Position numbers and translations under genes: made by a program
Part shown: one piece after another, positions 29,260-37,192 of the stretch
Layout of the letters: the number at the start of each line of letters is the position of its first letter
Position numbering within the stretch: position 1 is the first letter of the stretch
Notes under the pieces: model-generated
The model's input: the letters and a program-made list of their open reading frames with translations, nothing else
Told to the model about the DNA's origin: nothing
The model's database searches: none
Source of the DNA: Saprospiraceae bacterium
Lineage (GTDB): Bacteria > Bacteroidota > Bacteroidia > Chitinophagales > Saprospiraceae
Length of the DNA: 37,230 nucleotides
Direction of reading: 5' to 3'
Assembly (NCBI GenBank): GCA_020629915.1
Contig: JAHDCK010000004.1
Location: forward strand, 1-37,230

Positions 29260-30807
29260 CTACCACACTTTCCACCAAGGCTGTTGGTTCTGTCCTGGTG
29301 ATTCGGCGATGGCATTATCCGAGGCAGCAGCAGCTCTCTCTTTTACTGCCGCTGCCTCTTTTCTCATTTGGCTCTTTGAGATTCGCTTGGGTCTCAGGGC
29401 ACTAATTGCAGGATCGGCAAGCAGTGCCTTTACTTTTTCCAGATAAGGTTTTCCTTTTTCCGGATTTATATCATATACGTGTTGCGCATATCCCTGAATA
29501 GTATTCAGAAGGTGCCCGTCACCCCATTTTTTTCCTTCTATACCATTTTTTTCTATTTGATAAAGCAATGCCCGGAACTTGCGGAGCGTTTTTCTATCTA
29601 CATTCATCTTTTCATTGACGACAATTCCCGTTACTTCTTTTCTTCGGCCATTGCGCATCACACGGATTTTCTTTGGGTGTAATTTAAATCCTTCGTCTTC
29701 TACAATCTCCTTCACCTGCCACAAAATCCGGCTGACTTTTTCCACCGAATTTCCGGAAGCAGAAAAGGTCAAATCATCAGCATATCTCGTATATGTAAAT
29801 CCTAACTTATTGGCAACGCCTTCAAAGCGGCGATCCATTTTATAACAAATTATATTTGTAATCGCCGGACTTGTCGGTGCGCCTTGCGGCAAAAAGCGAC
29901 TGCCTTTTGACACATAATATTTTTGTCTATCCATTTCTACTTCATCTACTTCTGGTTCTGTACACAGCAATCCAAAAATCGTAGCAATCTGCTCTGAGTA
30001 TCCCAGGCTCTTGAACATACCTTTTACACGCTTGTAGGAAACCGAAGGAAAAAAATCTTTCAAATCCAAATTTATTACAACATCTTTTCCTATATGTTTT
30101 TCCGCATTACTTTTTATAGAACGCTCCGGCACAAAACCATGTGCATGTTCATTTATTTCTAATTTGTATAAAATATTTTCCAATATCCAATATTGCGCTG
30201 CTTTCAGATACGGCATTGGAGCCGAGATCATTCTTTGACCTCCGGATTTTTTAGGAAGGAAAAATCGCTTGTAGTGATTAGTTTTAGATGTTTTTCTCGT
30301 ATAAGTCAAAAATCTAAGTTTCCCAATCGTCAACCCCATCGCTTCTGCCAAAGCCGGCATATCCTCAAATAAAGGAAGATTATTGATATGTAATTTTTCC
30401 TTATCATTTTCCGTTTTAATCAGCCCTGCACTCACACCTTCTCCCAGATATGAAATATCTTTTGTCTTTTTCTCTGCCCAGGCTGCGGCTCTCTCCTGGC
30501 GTTCCTTTTCTCTTCTCTCCTTAGTTTCTTCCCGGCGTTTTTTGGCATCGGCCATTCGCTTATCACGCATCTCCTTGAGCATCGCTTCCTTGTTACGCAT
30601 TTTGCGTTGGGTACTCAGGAGGTCATTTAATTCTCGTCGGAGCTTGCCCTCTTTTTCAATCAACTCCTTTGCCACGCTCGGTTTTTCTTCATCTTCTGCC
30701 CAAAAGCCCAACCGGATCATTTCCGATAAAATAAATTCCTCCCGGGAAGTTTGCCGGATTTGATCGTACAGTTGTTGTCGGGTACGGATTGGTGTGTCGT
30801 TAGCCAT
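29260..30807 (-). CDS. Retron-type reverse transcriptase with charged N-terminal extension
   Basis: 515 residues; typical retron RTs have about 300-400. The RT core is about 160-410. Retron hallmarks in order are HAHGFVPERSIKSNAEKHIG (222-240, with the NAxxH motif at 234-238), NLDLKDFFPSV (catalytic Asp248), LPQGAPTSPAITN (306-318), RYADDLTFS (341-349, catalytic Asp344 and Asp345) and the retron VTG motif at 392-394 (RRKEVTGIVVN). Residues 40-120 form a highly charged coiled coil (KKRREETKERREKERQERAA), and the tail 470-515 is basic then Ala/Gln-rich, ending WWKVW. It lies 53 bp after the last of four retron-like ncRNAs and should copy them into msDNA. It lacks the maturase and endonuclease domains of group II intron RTs. 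Expected role: retron defence system. Confidence 0.93.
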   Translation of the reverse strand: MANDTPIRTRQQLYDQIRQTSREEFILSEMIRLGFWAEDEEKPSVAKELIEKEGKLRRELNDLLSTQRKMRNKEAMLKEMRDKRMADAKKRREETKERREKERQERAAAWAEKKTKDISYLGEGVSAGLIKTENDKEKLHINNLPLFEDMPALAEAMGLTIGKLRFLTYTRKTSKTNHYKRFFLPKKSGGQRMISAPMPYLKAAQYWILENILYKLEINEHAHGFVPERSIKSNAEKHIGKDVVINLDLKDFFPSVSYKRVKGMFKSLGYSEQIATIFGLLCTEPEVDEVEMDRQKYYVSKGSRFLPQGAPTSPAITNIICYKMDRRFEGVANKLGFTYTRYADDLTFSASGNSVEKVSRILWQVKEIVEDEGFKLHPKKIRVMRNGRRKEVTGIVVNEKMNVDRKTLRKFRALLYQIEKNGIEGKKWGDGHLLNTIQGYAQHVYDINPEKGKPYLEKVKALLADPAISALRPKRISKSQMRKEAAAVKERAAAASDNAIAESPGQNQQPWWKVW

Positions 30808-30859: not shown

Positions 30860-31080
30860 AGCAGCAGGGGAAATCCCTTCGAACAATCTCAGAACCAGAG
30901 TCATCAGCTCCACAGAGGTAGTACCTATATGCGATATTTGCTTCGAGGAAGCCCTACCGAAATGTCGCATATAGGTACTACCTCTAACAATAAAGATGAG
31001 TCTGGTGAAGCAGGTTTGGTCTTTTTTCAGTAATGACGAAACATCATTTAAAAGCAAGGTTTTAAGATCCCACTGCTGCT
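30860..31080 (-). ncRNA. Retron-like ncRNA A (a1-msr-msd-a2), nearest the RT
   Basis: Read on the minus strand. The a1 stem AGCAGCAG (31073-31080) pairs with a2 CTGCTGCT (30860-30867), with further GGGA/TCCC and CCTT/AAGG pairing inside. The conserved AACCTTGC (31054-31061) is the candidate branch region. The msr hairpin AATGA-TGTTTCG-TCATT is at 31032-31048. A stem with one mismatch (30995-31005 with 30895-30905) encloses the 72-nt msd hairpin at 30914-30985, whose apex carries a GCTTC-CTC-GAAGC mini-hairpin. The conserved GGAGCTGAT (30903-30911) and TTCGAAGG segments follow. The a2 strand runs straight into a T7 tract, so the closing stem could also act as a terminator or attenuator before the RT gene. 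Confidence 0.88.
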
Positions 31081-31088
31081 GTTCCAAA

Positions 31089-31113
31089 TGCTGCCAGGCA
31101 AAACCCGGCAGCA
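31089..31113 (-). other. Spacer hairpin between ncRNAs B and A
   Basis: TGCTGCC pairs with GGCAGCA around an 11-nt loop, directly after the 3' end of ncRNA B and just before a1 of ncRNA A. There is no T tract. It may mark a processing site or block read-through structure between units. Confidence 0.5.
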
Positions 31114-31115
31114 AC

Positions 31116-31412
31116 GGAAACAAGCAAACTATATAAGTTTAATTTTAATTCAACTTAATTTTCCTTCGATACATTCTTAGAACGGTGTCCATCAGCTCCA
31201 GAGTAGTTGGGGACCCTGGGGTTTAGATGTCGGGGTAGATCAGGAGGAACGAGTGGGATACCCCGACACGAACCGGCTGAGCCTCAGGGTCCCCAACTAC
31301 ACCCAAAAAAGATGGACGCGGTGAAGTCGCTTTAGTTCATATAACAATAATGGCGATACACCATTGTTTTGTTTTTCAACAAAAGGCAAGGTTTTACTTA
31401 TTGCTTGTTTCC
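31116..31412 (-). ncRNA. Retron-like ncRNA B
   Basis: Read on the minus strand. A perfect 12-bp a1/a2 stem (GGAAACAAGCAA at 31401-31412, complement at 31116-31127) is continued by ATAAGT/ACTTAT. Then come the conserved AACCTTGC, an extra hairpin (31367-31384), the msr hairpin AATGG-TGTATCG-CCATT (31349-31365) and the GTCCATC/GATGGAC closing stem (31187-31193 with 31311-31317). The 98-nt msd hairpin at 31203-31300 has two perfect stems of 16 bp and 10 bp separated by an asymmetric bulge. Its 21-nt loop contains TCCCACTCGT, the exact complement of a segment in the msd loop of ncRNA D. GGAGCTGAT is at 31191-31199. Confidence 0.88.
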
Positions 31413-31456
31413 TGTTATGTCAATTTTTAAAATAGTTTATTTTAAAATTCAAAATA

Positions 31457-31480
31457 AGTGCCCGCCCTTCAGCGGGCACT
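31457..31480 (-). terminator. Possible terminator between ncRNAs C and B
   Basis: AGTGCCCGC pairs perfectly with GCGGGCACT around a 6-nt loop; the minus-strand reading is followed by TATTTTG. It could end a D-C transcript, making B-A-RT a second unit. The surrounding spacer 31413-31636 also holds a hairpin at 31610-31633 (ATGCCCGTAA/TTATGGGCAT) just after the end of ncRNA C, and a 65-codon open frame I do not trust. Confidence 0.55.
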
Positions 31481-31636
31481 GACAAGTTATATATAAAAGG
31501 GCAAAATGAGAATGAGCTTAATGTTTCCTGACTTTTGGATTCTATTATCTTTTGCTGAAACAAACTAAAGTTTGTTGTACTTTTCATTTTACCTTGGTTT
31601 ACCAAAATGATGCCCATAACGTTTTACGGGCATGTG

Positions 31637-31876
31637 TTGAAAACACGGATTGCGCCTAATCCCTTCGAACAATCTCAGCACTTGACTCATCAGCTCCATA
31701 GAGGGAGTACCTATATTCGGTATTTGCTTCGAGGAAGCCCTACCGAAATGCCGAATATAGGTACTCCCTCTTACAAAAAAGATGAGTTGGGTGAAGCAGG
31801 TTTGGTCATTTTACAGGAATGACGATACATCATTCTAAAAGCAAGGTCTTGGACGACGCTTCTCCGCCTGTTTCAA
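31637..31876 (-). ncRNA. Retron-like ncRNA C, paralogue of A
   Basis: Read on the minus strand. The a1/a2 stem is imperfect: TTGAAACA (31869-31876) with TGTTTTCAA (31637-31645), then CGGA/TCCG and GCG/CGC inside. The conserved ACCTTGC (near 31841-31847), msr hairpin GAATGA-TGTATCG-TCATTC (31817-31835), ACTCATC/GATGAGT closing stem (31685-31691 with 31781-31787), GGAGCTGAT (31689-31697) and TTCGAAGG are all present. The 72-nt msd hairpin at 31700-31771 differs from that of A at six bases that form exactly three compensated pairs; its apex is identical to A. Confidence 0.88.
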
Positions 31877-31890
31877 TTTTTTAATATATA

Positions 31891-32215
31891 AGAATAAAAA
31901 ACCTTCGAAACAACACTCAGAACTAAATGAATCAGCTCCACTCCCACTGTGTCTACCTAAATAGTAGAACTTACAAGGAGTGTCCCACTCGTCACCGTTA
32001 GTAAGTTCTACTATTTAGGTAGACATAGGTGGGATAGAAAAAGATTCCTATTTAGTGAATATGTAATTTGCCATTTTACCAGAGCGACGAATCATCGCTT
32101 CTATTTCTTTTACAAAGTATCGGAAGCTTTAATTTCCCGAATCATCGAGATTGGGGTTTTAATGGAGTAAAAATCTCCCTGACCTGGTAAAAGAAATTTG
32201 CAAGGTTTTTATTCT
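31891..32215 (-). ncRNA. Retron-like ncRNA D, first in the array, with extra 5' domain
   Basis: Read on the minus strand. A ~14-bp a1/a2 stem with one bulge is formed by AGAATAAAAACCTT (32202-32215) and its partner at 31891-31905. Next comes an extra 95-nt domain (32103-32197) closed by a perfect 11-bp stem (ATTTCTTTTAC/GTAAAAGAAAT) and holding two smaller hairpins. The msr hairpin AGCGA-TGATTCG-TCGCT is at 32083-32099. A closing stem (31921-31933 with 32043-32056) surrounds the 93-nt msd hairpin at 31942-32034. This has a 6-bp outer stem, a 2- to 3-nt internal loop, a perfect 25-bp inner stem and a 26-nt loop with ACGAGTGGGA, the complement of the B loop. GGAGCTGAT (31931-31939) and TTCGAAGG follow. 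Confidence 0.86.
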
Positions 32216-32322: not shown

Positions 32323-33987
32323 TTAAGCTGAAATCGCATTTTTTTTCGTTTTATTATGCTTCATGCGCAAAGCCAGAATATGCTCGCAAGGCCCTTTTTT
32401 TAATTTATTAGAATTATAAAAATAGCAATCACAAACGGCATGCTTCATACGCTCGTCGCTGTCGATTACCAATTCCGGGTGATGTGTGCGATAGCGATCT
32501 TTCACCGACCCGGTCAACTTCAACCCAACCCCGGAAACGATATCTGCGGCTACATGGATTTCTCCCTGCAATAATCGATTGGCATCTTTTTCCCTTGGAT
32601 TGGCGAAGCGGAGTTGGCTCATCGGCAAAGGCTCCCGGCTGAGTTCCCTGACGCGATAAACATTCTTATCTAAATCATATATGACTCTTCCTGCTTGCGT
32701 ATAAGCTGACAAGGCTCCGGCCACGACGTCCTTTTCGAGGTCAAGTCGCTTAGCCAGGGACTCGGAAGTTTCCGACCAGTTTTCCTTGAGGGAGCTATAT
32801 ACTAATTTTTTTGTCATATTATCGACTTCCATGCGAGGAGCCATCAAATCAAAATTGCCTGCGCGCGACCAGTCATTGGCTGTCCATCCGGAAAGTCCCA
32901 GGGTAAAATTCATATCGCCCAGATCCGCTACGTAAAAAGAGGGCAACCCTGTCCCAAGCAAATGAACCCGGAACTTTTTCGTAATCGGAATCAGTCGCTC
33001 CAAAATCAACAGACGACGACGACCCCAAACGCGTACTTCTCTTTCCTCTTTACCCGGATAAATCGAGCGCGGACATTCCAATTCATAATTCCACGGTTCA
33101 AATATGATTTTTATTGGTTCTCCGGGTTTTAAAATATACTTCATGGAGCGAGGGCTTTTCTTCGCCCGATATCTTCGCAACATTAAACATATATTATAAA
33201 CATCCATTGGGTGTAAATCAAAAGATTCGGCGGGTAAGGTCATCGCAGAACTCACCTGCAAAAATCCACGCACCCAACTTTCCGGTAAATCAATTTTAAC
33301 TTCTTTATATAAGTCTTCTTCTCCTGTTTGAATTTCAAATCCACTTGGGTCCACCCGGAAATCGGTGTCTTTATAATTTCTGATTTTTTGAAATTCGTTG
33401 TACAATGCCGCAGAGTAATCAATGTTAGTTGTACCGCATTCAAACTCATTCACATTTTTAAAAACATTATAATTCGCACCCAGTTTCCCGTAAGTCGATT
33501 CGTCCTGGCTGAAACATTCAAAAAACATTTCATCCGGATGAACGGTGATCACGGGGTCCAGCACAAACCAGGCATCGTAATCTCTTTTATAAATATATTG
33601 AAAATAATTACTTTTAGCGCGATTGTATGGAGCCAGAACAGATTGCTTTTCTCTATATACATCATTTAGGTCTGTTTGCAAAACCTTGATGCGATTTTCC
33701 ATATCTTCCTTTCCTTCCATCAGCTTGGCCATATATTCGCCCAACCAGATTTCTTCCTGTTGAGCGGCCCACTCTTTGTACTCCGTTTTGTCTTTGGGCT
33801 TGAATCGCAAATCCGAAACAACGACATCGTGCAAAGCAGAGATGGCTTCCCGAAAAGGAATATTTTTAGATAATTGCCCAACAAAAAAAGTAGGTTGGCG
33901 AAGCGTATCCGGAGCGAAGGAAATCCCGGTTTGTCCGGCATTGCTGGTCACGGTTGAACTTCCTCCATATTTATAATTAAAAAGCAT
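32323..33987 (-). CDS. SWIM zinc-finger protein, retron-associated
   Basis: 554 residues. The C-terminus carries a SWIM zinc finger, Cys519-x-Cys521-x12-Cys534-x-His536 (CDCYFYNSNKLKKGPCEHIL), a fold that binds DNA or proteins. Before it, about 410-465, is a winged-helix-like segment (SETSESLAKRLDLEKDVVAGALSAYTQAGRVIYDLDKNVYRVREL). The larger N-terminal part (about 1-400) has a coiled coil near 75-115 and no family I can name. No signal or membrane segment. It starts 61 bp after the WGR/HEAT gene and ends about 110 bp before ncRNA D, so it sits inside the retron locus and is a likely partner or effector; that role is inference. Confidence 0.87.
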   Translation of the reverse strand: MLFNYKYGGSSTVTSNAGQTGISFAPDTLRQPTFFVGQLSKNIPFREAISALHDVVVSDLRFKPKDKTEYKEWAAQQEEIWLGEYMAKLMEGKEDMENRIKVLQTDLNDVYREKQSVLAPYNRAKSNYFQYIYKRDYDAWFVLDPVITVHPDEMFFECFSQDESTYGKLGANYNVFKNVNEFECGTTNIDYSAALYNEFQKIRNYKDTDFRVDPSGFEIQTGEEDLYKEVKIDLPESWVRGFLQVSSAMTLPAESFDLHPMDVYNICLMLRRYRAKKSPRSMKYILKPGEPIKIIFEPWNYELECPRSIYPGKEEREVRVWGRRRLLILERLIPITKKFRVHLLGTGLPSFYVADLGDMNFTLGLSGWTANDWSRAGNFDLMAPRMEVDNMTKKLVYSSLKENWSETSESLAKRLDLEKDVVAGALSAYTQAGRVIYDLDKNVYRVRELSREPLPMSQLRFANPREKDANRLLQGEIHVAADIVSGVGLKLTGSVKDRYRTHHPELVIDSDERMKHAVCDCYFYNSNKLKKGPCEHILALRMKHNKTKKNAISA

Positions 33988-34048: not shown

Positions 34049-37000
34049 TTAACTTTCTATATATTCTTCAATTTCATTTATCTTAACGACTGTTTTCAGG
34101 TGTGGGTATTTGCCCTGAATGTCTCGCAAAATTTCGATGCATCTGGCCTTGTCTCCAATCGCCATCGTAGCAGAAATTCGGTTGATAATTTGAGTAACTT
34201 CGGTGGCCATTTCTGTATCGCTCATCGCCTCTTTGTGCAGGAAATTAAGGATGCGATTTTTAGCTACTCTTCCTTTGTTCACTTTAGACAAAACAGTTAT
34301 AAAATATAATTCTAACTGTTTGACATGAGCGAGGTTACCGACAGCAAATTCTTCCAGATATTCAGATGCGAATTTTTGTAATTCGACTGCCGGATGCTGG
34401 CTGAGCTTCAGGAGATATTCCGTTCCGTTTTCCTGCTTGAAAAAACGGGAGATCAACTCCTTCCCAAAGGTCTGAACATCTGCTCGAACGGAATCGCAAA
34501 TGCCAATTAAAATTTCCGGCGTCCAGTCTTTATCTGTGAAATTCGTTCTAAAATAATCAACGGCAAATGCGCGGGAATCATCCCATTTAGAATCCAGCAA
34601 ACGAATCGCTTCTTCTCTTTCATAACGCATTCTACCTATATCATTTTTAAACATATTCCAGGCCGTTTGTCTTGCCTCGAACAATTCGTGATTGGCCAGG
34701 CGAATAATATTCCGCACGGACAAACTCTCTGGTTTCACATATTTTTTAACCAGATTTATCCCCAGAACCTGCGCTGGCTGGCGTTTTGAGTTCAATAAGC
34801 GAAAAATCATTTTGCGATCAATCATATGCAAATGTCTTTCGAGATCCTGCGCTAATAATTTAGAGATTTTCTCATGCGTACCTTTCACTTTTTCTTTTCT
34901 CAGCAAAATAGCAGCGTAACGCTTCACCATCAATTCGGCAAAGGAATCAGATTTTTTAATATTCTCTTTTATCAAAAGCATAGCTTCCAGTCGAATATCT
35001 TCATATTTAGACAAACTTAATTCGATTAGCCATTCGCCTTTTTCCAGTAAAACATCTTCGCCTAATTTCTCCAGCAAATCCAACCCGATTTGGCGCATTT
35101 CCTGATTTTCATTTTCAAGGAGATGTTTCCAAATTTCATCCGGCAATTCTGTCGCAGGTTTTTGATGATTTACAATAATTTTTCCTCCGAGTGCCTGAAC
35201 TTTTGTCAATTTATGTCCAAGCAAATCATTGACAATATTCCAACTCAGTCGCTTCATTTTCTCCGGAAAAACTCTTAGTAAAATATTCCCTGCATCATCA
35301 ATTTTATCATTTGATTTATCAGAGTTCATCGACATGATTTGAGCAATCGTTTTTACAATTAAAACCTGTTGTTTTTCATCCGATAAACTACTACTATTTT
35401 TCTTCAATTCAACTCCGATCCATTTACGATTACTTTCGTGTTTGCTGCAAATCATTTCCAGCAAGAAATTAACATCACTATAATACGTATTTGAATTTTC
35501 ATTCACCCATTGCTGGGCTGTTGCTCTAACCTCGGGCAAAGTACAGTTCAACATCACTGCAACCAATCTTCCGTCGGGACGTTTTCCTTCAAATTTTTTA
35601 GCGGCAATTTCATTCGCCAACTGGTTTGTAATTTTAAACGGTTTTTCAAATAATCGAATAATCAAATCCAAGTCAAACTTATTGATTAATTCTTCATATT
35701 TTTCGTTTTTCTTAAAGGCTTGTACTGCAAATTCATGCACCCATTCTGACTGACTTTCCATAAGTAAATGGATATATCCTTTAGGCTGCGCATCCCACAA
35801 TTCCGGAAAAGCTTCTTCCCGCACATCTGGCTTTTGTTCTCCTGGCAAATGTTTTCCCCGACAAACCCAGGCTGCACTCGCCCCGGATCGCATTTGATAA
35901 CGCTCGCTATTTCCTAATAAAATTCCGGAAAAGGCCAGAGACTCTGCGTACTTATCATAATGAACGGTGTGCTTTATATGCCTTCGGATTTGGCTATTGT
36001 ACAACCAATTGATCGTCCGACGGATATTACCCGCATCTTTTTCATCTATATAAGGTAATAAAATACCAACGGCCATTGGAACATACTCCGGACTCCCGGC
36101 TTCCCCCAATCTCCTCACGGTACGCCAGACTCGCTTCTTGAAGTAACCTTTAGTTTTATCTGAAAAAGCAATTCGGCTATTGGTCTTTTTGACTTCTTCT
36201 TTAATATTCACCCGACCGACTCTGGAAACATAAGTATGACTTCCATATTTTGGATTTCTATACATAAAGTTTTCCTGATCCATCCGGTAAGCTAACAGAC
36301 CAAAAACAGGTGCATCATAGCGATATTCGGCTGCTTTAAAGATATATCTTATATATTTGAAATATTTTGCCTTTACCGGCAGTTCTTTCAAAATATCAAA
36401 AAGCGGCTGGCGTACAATTGGATATTCCTGGATGAGGAGATATGTTTTATATAAAAATTCTACAGACGCATCTTTAGCCTTCGCATATAAAAAAGCATTA
36501 ATTTGTCTTTTAACCTCAGAAGCTTCACCTGACTCAATAGCCTTTTTCAATGGCCCCGGTAATTCAAAATATAATTTTTCTTTTAATGTTTTTTGAGCCT
36601 GGCTTTCCGGCAATTGGAGGGTAGCCAGATCCGCCATTCGTTTCACGGTTGCAGATTTTGACAATTGCGCAAAAGCACGAATTTGAGCCCCTTGTTCCTC
36701 TGTCCCAATTCTACCTAACGCATATAAATAACTATACTGCGTCATTTCATCCATACCAATTCCCTTTAGAGCAATTAAGCCCGGAAGCGCCTCTTGAATA
36801 TGCAATTCTCCTATACGCCAAAACACGCGGGATAATGACCAGCCAGGATTTTGCACCTTGCCATTTTTACTCACCCAATGGTTGAGATGTTTTAAAATAT
36901 GTGCTTTTTGCGATTGCTTTCTTTCTGCTGAAAGCACTTTGAATGGAGGCTGAAAACCCGTTTCGGATTCGTATCCTTTTGATAGTTGAAAATCAATCAG

Positions 37001-37192
37001 GTTTTCAAAAATGCGCTGGGCATGAGCAAAAGAAACGGGGCGATCTGTTTTATCACCGGATTTTAGCTCGCTGCCTTTCTCTCCAAAGAAAAACTGAACC
37101 ATGTACTTGCCTGACGCAACCGCAGCCAGTGCAACTTCATAGATTTTGTTTTTTCCTGAATGAAATAACTTTTTTCTTTTTAAAAATTTCAC
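34049..37192 (-). CDS. WGR-like domain and HEAT-repeat protein, retron-associated
   Basis: 1047 residues from a GTG at 37192. The frame stays open to the window edge with no ATG, so the true start may lie beyond it. Residues 1-75 resemble a WGR domain (NKIYEVALAAVASGKYMVQFFFGEKG, then FAHAQRIFENLIDFQLSKGY), but the WGR signature itself is degenerate (FGE). The remainder is a long run of HEAT/ARM-type helical repeats (LPGLIALKGIGMDEMTQYSYLYALGRIGTEE, EIWKHLLENENQEMRQIGLDLLEKLGEDV, RYEREEAIRLLDSKWDDSRAFAVDYF). WGR domains bind nucleic acid in PARP and MolR-type proteins. It heads the minus-strand WGR-SWIM-ncRNA-RT block and may sense or dock nucleic acid for the retron; this is inference. Confidence 0.87.
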   Translation of the reverse strand: MKFLKRKKLFHSGKNKIYEVALAAVASGKYMVQFFFGEKGSELKSGDKTDRPVSFAHAQRIFENLIDFQLSKGYESETGFQPPFKVLSAERKQSQKAHILKHLNHWVSKNGKVQNPGWSLSRVFWRIGELHIQEALPGLIALKGIGMDEMTQYSYLYALGRIGTEEQGAQIRAFAQLSKSATVKRMADLATLQLPESQAQKTLKEKLYFELPGPLKKAIESGEASEVKRQINAFLYAKAKDASVEFLYKTYLLIQEYPIVRQPLFDILKELPVKAKYFKYIRYIFKAAEYRYDAPVFGLLAYRMDQENFMYRNPKYGSHTYVSRVGRVNIKEEVKKTNSRIAFSDKTKGYFKKRVWRTVRRLGEAGSPEYVPMAVGILLPYIDEKDAGNIRRTINWLYNSQIRRHIKHTVHYDKYAESLAFSGILLGNSERYQMRSGASAAWVCRGKHLPGEQKPDVREEAFPELWDAQPKGYIHLLMESQSEWVHEFAVQAFKKNEKYEELINKFDLDLIIRLFEKPFKITNQLANEIAAKKFEGKRPDGRLVAVMLNCTLPEVRATAQQWVNENSNTYYSDVNFLLEMICSKHESNRKWIGVELKKNSSSLSDEKQQVLIVKTIAQIMSMNSDKSNDKIDDAGNILLRVFPEKMKRLSWNIVNDLLGHKLTKVQALGGKIIVNHQKPATELPDEIWKHLLENENQEMRQIGLDLLEKLGEDVLLEKGEWLIELSLSKYEDIRLEAMLLIKENIKKSDSFAELMVKRYAAILLRKEKVKGTHEKISKLLAQDLERHLHMIDRKMIFRLLNSKRQPAQVLGINLVKKYVKPESLSVRNIIRLANHELFEARQTAWNMFKNDIGRMRYEREEAIRLLDSKWDDSRAFAVDYFRTNFTDKDWTPEILIGICDSVRADVQTFGKELISRFFKQENGTEYLLKLSQHPAVELQKFASEYLEEFAVGNLAHVKQLELYFITVLSKVNKGRVAKNRILNFLHKEAMSDTEMATEVTQIINRISATMAIGDKARCIEILRDIQGKYPHLKTVVKINEIEEYIES

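Follow-up and report, generated by a model that had tools for sequence, protein, structure and literature searches.

Tandem arrays of diverged ncRNA units upstream of type XIII retron reverse transcriptases in a Saprospiraceae bacterium and its relatives

Retrons are treated as one reverse transcriptase (RT) plus one template, and the usual layout of a retron locus has a single ncRNA per RT, a feature that does not define type XIII. The retron classification behind type XIII is reportedly that of Mestre et al. 2020. For several retrons of other kinds the trigger is known: Retron-Asa1 and Retron-Squ1 are activated when a phage methylates GATC in their RT-DNA (PMC12548924), Ec86 responds to Dcm-like methylation and Eco8 to the binding of SSB (PMC13158370). 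In the methylation-triggered retrons Asa1, Squ1 and Ec86, a reverse-transcribed stem able to carry a modification site provides the trigger (PMC12548924, PMC13158370), and this is where they would resemble the locus described here. They have one ncRNA, whereas window-type arrays have several stems, in which GATC is nearly absent and GTAC and CTAG are enriched.

The window, by which we mean the whole stretch of 37,230 nucleotides that was analysed, contains an RT with the motifs NAxxH at residue 234, YADD at 342 and VTG at 392, for which the second-best PADLOC model, RT_other, scores 307.6 bits as against 643.6 bits for RT_XIII. Because the RT, the SWIM protein and the WGR/HEAT protein match PADLOC type XIII models over approximately their full lengths, we assign the locus to type XIII (PADLOC RT_XIII, SWIM_XIII, WGR_XIII, HEAT-ARM_XIII). 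The earlier note had mentioned a retron class with WGR/HEAT and SWIM partners, and PADLOC gives that class its name; the class, one of bacterial anti-virus elements, is thus already known. The three full-length protein matches and the order WGR, SWIM, ncRNA, RT are as in other type XIII retrons, and the window differs in having four ncRNA units instead of one. The features are listed below; scores for 5' and 3' blocks come from profile HMMs trained on units of other genomes only, to avoid circularity, and CM scores from a covariance model (CM) built from 32 units of other genomes.

29260-30807, minus strand: retron reverse transcriptase, 515 aa (PADLOC RT_XIII, 643.6 bits, residues 4-490)
30860-31080, minus strand: ncRNA unit A, a1 at 31068-31080, a2 at 30860-30871 (CM 99.1 bits, E 2.4e-24, 30877-31058; own a1/a2 -27.2 kcal/mol)
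30914-30985, minus strand: msd hairpin of unit A, arms 30960-30985 and 30914-30939 (inverted repeat, 96% complementary over 26 nt)
31032-31048, minus strand: msr hairpin of unit A, AATGATGTTTCGTCATT (fold; helix 1 covaries across units)
31116-31412, minus strand: ncRNA unit B (CM 20.9 bits, E 2.6e-4, 31164-31380; a1/a2 repeat)
31203-31300, minus strand: msd hairpin of unit B, arms 31277-31300 and 31203-31226, with a second stem inside (inverted repeat; fold)
31457-31480, minus strand: hairpin resembling an intrinsic terminator, between units C and B (10-pair stem, then TATTTT; consensus match only)
31637-31880, minus strand: ncRNA unit C (CM 85.8 bits, E 6.1e-21, 31663-31845; own a1/a2 -24.4 kcal/mol)
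31700-31771, minus strand: msd hairpin of unit C, arms 31746-31771 and 31700-31725 (inverted repeat)
31891-32215, minus strand: ncRNA unit D (own a1/a2 -15.1 kcal/mol; 5' block E 0.0057, 3' block E 0.0026)
31947-32028, minus strand: msd hairpin of unit D, arms 32001-32028 and 31947-31974 (inverted repeat, 96% complementary over 28 nt)
32323-33987, minus strand: SWIM_XIII partner protein P0002, 554 aa (798.6 bits)
34049-37192, minus strand: WGR_XIII partner protein, 1047 aa, WGR domain and HEAT/ARM solenoid (1056 bits to WGR_XIII)

Units A to D lie on the minus strand in the intergenic region that separates the SWIM gene from the RT gene. Each has a CTTGC start (31058, 31390, 31845 and 32204), of which T2, T3, G4 and C5 are invariant in the unit alignment, followed by an msr hairpin of the form TGWWTCG (TGTTTCG in A, TGTATCG in B and C, TGATTCG in D), a long msd hairpin and a 3' end of the pattern GGAGCTGAT...CGAAGG. 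The msd stem of unit C differs from that of unit A in both arms, with the pairing retained. Unit B has an enlarged msd, and its a1/a2 pair is a perfect 12-bp repeat lying farther out (31401-31412/31116-31127). The most diverged unit is D, in which some 95 additional bases, a second CGATGATTCG among them, separate CTTGC from the msr hairpin; its msd stem, a1/a2 and 3' block are all intact. The start motif, msr hairpin, msd hairpin and 3' block that the earlier note ascribed to every unit were thus all found, and only the end of unit B had to be corrected, which is TATCGAAGG and not TTCGAAGG.

The units greatly exceed what chance would give: with either block model, the four units are the best four matches in the 37 kb, all on the minus strand (E 3.6e-12, 3.3e-10, 4e-5 and 0.0057 for the 5' block; 4.4e-5, 0.0026, 0.012 and 0.08 for the 3' block). 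The covariance model scores unit D at 8.8 bits (E 0.33) in the whole window and at 11.8 bits (E 0.0023) in an unfiltered search of the intergenic region only. Since an unrelated plus-strand match at 29981, inside the RT gene, outranks D in the whole-window search (12.1 bits, E 0.047), the call of unit D depends also on its 5' and 3' block matches. In units A, C and D, a1 pairs best with its own a2, at the energies listed above; off-diagonal combinations reach -4 to -17.5 kcal/mol. Rfam models searched against the window gave no match. HMMs, covariance model, repeats and folds agree on four complete, diverged ncRNAs at these positions beside a single retron RT, as had been proposed from the bare sequence, and we are highly confident that the array exists and is of retron nature.

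In the relatives, profiles were used because an exact search for GGAGCTGAT fails there, the family consensus being GAGTTGA. The sample consisted of the DNA upstream of the RT in 48 type XIII loci from GTDB genomes, together with more genomes from the same family, class and phylum. The covariance model found 104 units in 894 kb, 101 of them outside the window in 66 other loci, and these 101 without exception share the strand of the RT and lie at most 3.2 kb upstream of it. No units were detected by the model at the non-type-XIII RT loci L049-L053. One unit is present in 43 of the 66 other loci, two in 15, three in 4 and four in 4 (L012, L084, in which one unit is cut by the contig end, L086 and L136). 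Arrays of two to four units are therefore a recurrent property of the class, occurring in 23/66 other loci, about a third. Because of these 23, the class cannot be defined by the number of units; because of the 43 with a single unit, the array is not essential to it. Single units occur in Chitinophaga, Niastella, Runella and campylobacterial loci, and two or more in many Saprospiraceae relatives and several Calothrix. The units of L012, like those of L099, resemble one another in score. In the literature searched, which took in neither Mestre 2020 nor the 2024 census of retrons, we came across no account of natural arrays of ncRNAs, and a prior report is possible.

Some loci depart from the common arrangement. 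In L138 and L140, the sole ncRNA unit precedes the SWIM gene, at a distance of about 1.95 kb upstream of the RT. In the Calothrix loci L030, L035 and L037, which have a 2.6-kb gap between SWIM and RT, the SWIM-proximal unit was found and the RT-proximal one was not. Partial msr-like hairpins without a clear msd hairpin stand near the RT in L001 (GAATGTTGCTATCGGCATTC, about 480 bases upstream) and L088 (GAATGCTGCCATCGGCATTC, about 320 bases upstream); they could be either decayed units or a regulatory element.

The search upstream of related RTs that had been suggested as a check revealed a structure that is significant and covarying. In the 32 units from foreign genomes, both partners vary in 12 of the 17 predicted pairs; the covariation score is 0.554, whereas shuffles give 0.225 and slid controls no more than 0.141. 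For all 104 units the figures are 14 of 17 pairs and 0.616 (shuffles 0.216, slid controls at most 0.133), but the 32-unit value is the cleaner number, since the 104-unit alignment is fitted to the structure. The flanks of a unit also belong together: over 71 units, own a1/a2 flanks average -24.5 kcal/mol versus -11.2 for other partners, and in 54 of the 71 the pairing lies at least three standard deviations beyond that of shuffled flanks.

Together, these data suggest a model that we consider somewhat better than an even guess, in which one RT serves four tandem msr-msd units and produces several msDNAs with a shared frame and differing stems, forming a multi-trigger sensor or antitoxin; the earlier note had likewise thought of several sensors, baits or antitoxins. 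Every unit would fold as a separate ncRNA closed by its unit-specific a1/a2 stem, with the G of CTTGC as the likely, candidate branch site. The RT would recognise the msr hairpin and the enclosing stem and copy the long msd hairpin of each unit into msDNA, transcription and reverse transcription being assumed by analogy with known retrons. The resulting msDNAs would have a common RT-binding frame and loop and different double-stranded stems of 20-35 bp. RT-msDNA complexes probably keep the WGR/HEAT and SWIM proteins inactive, as in better studied retrons, and the stem would be exposed to phage enzymes such as methyltransferases, nucleases and DNA-binding proteins. Several stems could then widen the set of triggers, with damage to or modification of any one of them freeing the effector. 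That more phage functions would be sensed with several stems than with one is a step that we regard, by analogy with the retrons above, as a serious possibility, falling just short of what we would favour.

The copies might instead only raise the amount of msDNA, the differences between stems being irrelevant. Units do arise by local duplication, which in a tree of the scaffolds (few columns, many open forks) groups units 1 to 4 of L012, three units of L099, those of L132, and C and A of the window (u2 and u4), and in another retron type toxicity grows with retron copy number (PMC12548924). However, a mere effect of dosage predicts similar stems, whereas within arrays the scaffold identity averages 0.78 and the stem arm identity only 0.53, near that of random stem pairs (0.47), and stems have diversified in single-unit loci as well. 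We consider this explanation unlikely.

According to another explanation, only the RT-proximal unit is functional and the rest are decaying duplicates. It would fit the top CM score of unit A in the window, the far lower scores of B and D, and the additional partial msr-like hairpins beside the RT in L001 and L088. Yet the distal unit C is intact at 85.8 bits, and long paired msd stems are kept in all four window units. In the scaffold tree, moreover, the order of units 1 and 2 is kept across species in L016/L020/L023, in L091/L092 and in Calothrix. In the first of these groups, unit-1 scaffolds are 98-100% identical and unit-2 scaffolds 88-97%, at a synonymous divergence so wide that conserved codons share only 44-53% of their third bases. 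Scaffolds that are near-identical despite this divergence indicate purifying selection on both units and speak against a single working unit accompanied by relics. The units of Calothrix likewise both keep 88-100% scaffold identity, and the spacers there cannot be aligned. It is thus quite improbable that a single unit per array does the work.

A third alternative holds that the stems are mere spacers, which vary by neutral drift with compensatory change or by selection against recombination between copies. The msd stems (20-35 bp) are hypervariable and their complementarity is always maintained, as this explanation would have it, and the stems tried match neither phage nor host DNA: the unit A stem is found just once in its genome when 2 mismatches are allowed, viral contigs contain no exact 20-mer of either of two window stems, and a comparison of the unit A msd with phage records gave no meaningful match. 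The rate of change speaks against it. Between the Calothrix loci L030 and L032, 3 of 128 scaffold positions and 16% of fourfold sites differ, and the stem core differs at 12 of 13 positions on both arms with zero mismatches; in the L032 comparisons, the rate of change in stem cores exceeds that at fourfold sites (P 1.6e-6 to 1.8e-10). No significant excess over fourfold sites is seen in the remaining Calothrix pairs, so that a single lineage, L032, provides the evidence for stem replacement. The composition of the stems is also unlike drift. Of 74 stems that are less than 75% alike, 29 contain GTAC (6.4 expected), 44 ACTA (12.6), 45 GGTA (11.5) and 17 CTAG (6.6); GATC is found in one stem, AGCT and ACGT in none. 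Compared with other hairpins of the same loci, stems contain 21.8 versus 0.8 GTAC per kb and 10.7 versus 0 CTAG. Avoidance of recombination is not needed to explain the diversity, since single-copy loci diversify too. Overall, stems serving as nothing but spacers seem a poor prospect to us. That the units are regulatory hairpins of the operon and not retron ncRNAs, an idea to which the terminator-like hairpins in the intergenic region lend something, is very hard to believe given the retron-type layout with unit-specific a1/a2, msr and msd, the strict co-occurrence of units with the RT, and, in L138 and L140, the location of the unit ahead of the SWIM gene.

Further regularities were seen in the stems. 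A C[GAT]GT motif stands at the stem top in 93 of 116 units, and in Calothrix stems TA positions are constant and the flanking C and G swap. TA steps follow a weak 3-bp rhythm (46% vs 37.7%, 8/1000 shuffles), and a clear 3-bp periodicity of TA was rejected on account of this weakness. The idea that the stem words are the rarest words of the genome was not supported (Spearman -0.11 for 4-mers), and the window stems tried gave no matches that would support stems as phage spacers. No type XIII RT was detected on viral contigs with the peptide patterns used, and phage records yielded distant RTs only, with no spread of type XIII seen.

It is conceivable, though doubtful, that the stem repertoire of type XIII retrons is renewed as whole cassettes, both arms being replaced together in an unchanged scaffold, and that the array is a set of diversifying dsDNA sensors. 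The source of a new cassette would possibly be the hairpin cDNA of the RT itself or exchange between units. Should renewal proceed in this way, phage DNA-modifying or DNA-binding enzymes might be the targets of the array, a suggestion that we make just as tentatively.

The partner proteins offer a few hints as to the output of the system. The SWIM protein has a CxC...CxH motif that is invariant in 28 homologues. Its AlphaFold2 model is of low confidence (pLDDT 61), and the top structural matches, over residues 41-369, are all sliding clamps (PCNA/DnaN, from PDB and viral libraries; Foldseek E 1.8e-5; VIA Z 13.6, rmsd 7.9 A over 177 residues), so that a sliding-clamp-like fold is a low-confidence lead rather than a finding. 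The model of the WGR/HEAT protein is confident (pLDDT 87), and its best structural matches are HEAT/ARM solenoids, of HEAT type only. A search for enzymatic domains in the SWIM and WGR/HEAT proteins of this locus found none. In L102, on a distant branch whose RT is 42% identical and still matches RT_XIII, two additional genes lie between SWIM and RT (L102:2530-3771 and L102:1476-2429, both minus strand); one encodes a WGR protein that carries a PARP catalytic domain (Pfam E 4.3e-25), the other a further WGR protein. The position of the WGR-PARP gene suggests that ADP-ribosylation may be an output in this branch; the covariance model found no ncRNA of the window-type family in L102. Directly downstream of the RT in the window lies a gene for a MORN-repeat-like protein (P0004, 26925-28811, minus strand), which was not found at any of the related loci.

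Engineered retron arrays for multi-site editing have reportedly been presented by Gonzalez-Delgado et al. 2024, as cited in PMC12262390. They would share with the present arrays the use of several donors with one RT; theirs are man-made, whereas the present ones are natural. CRISPR and TIGR arrays are likewise tandem and combine a constant frame with variable inserts. Here, however, the unit is a whole ncRNA of 180-300 nt, its variable part is a self-complementary hairpin, and the window stems tried gave no match to invader DNA.

For genome editing, the arrays would be a natural source of templates and of spacing rules where one RT is to make several ssDNAs. If our reading is true, they also offer a direct test of how the sequence of the stem sets trigger specificity, and natural arrays with hypervariable stems would mark the msd stem as the evolving, phage-facing part of these retrons.
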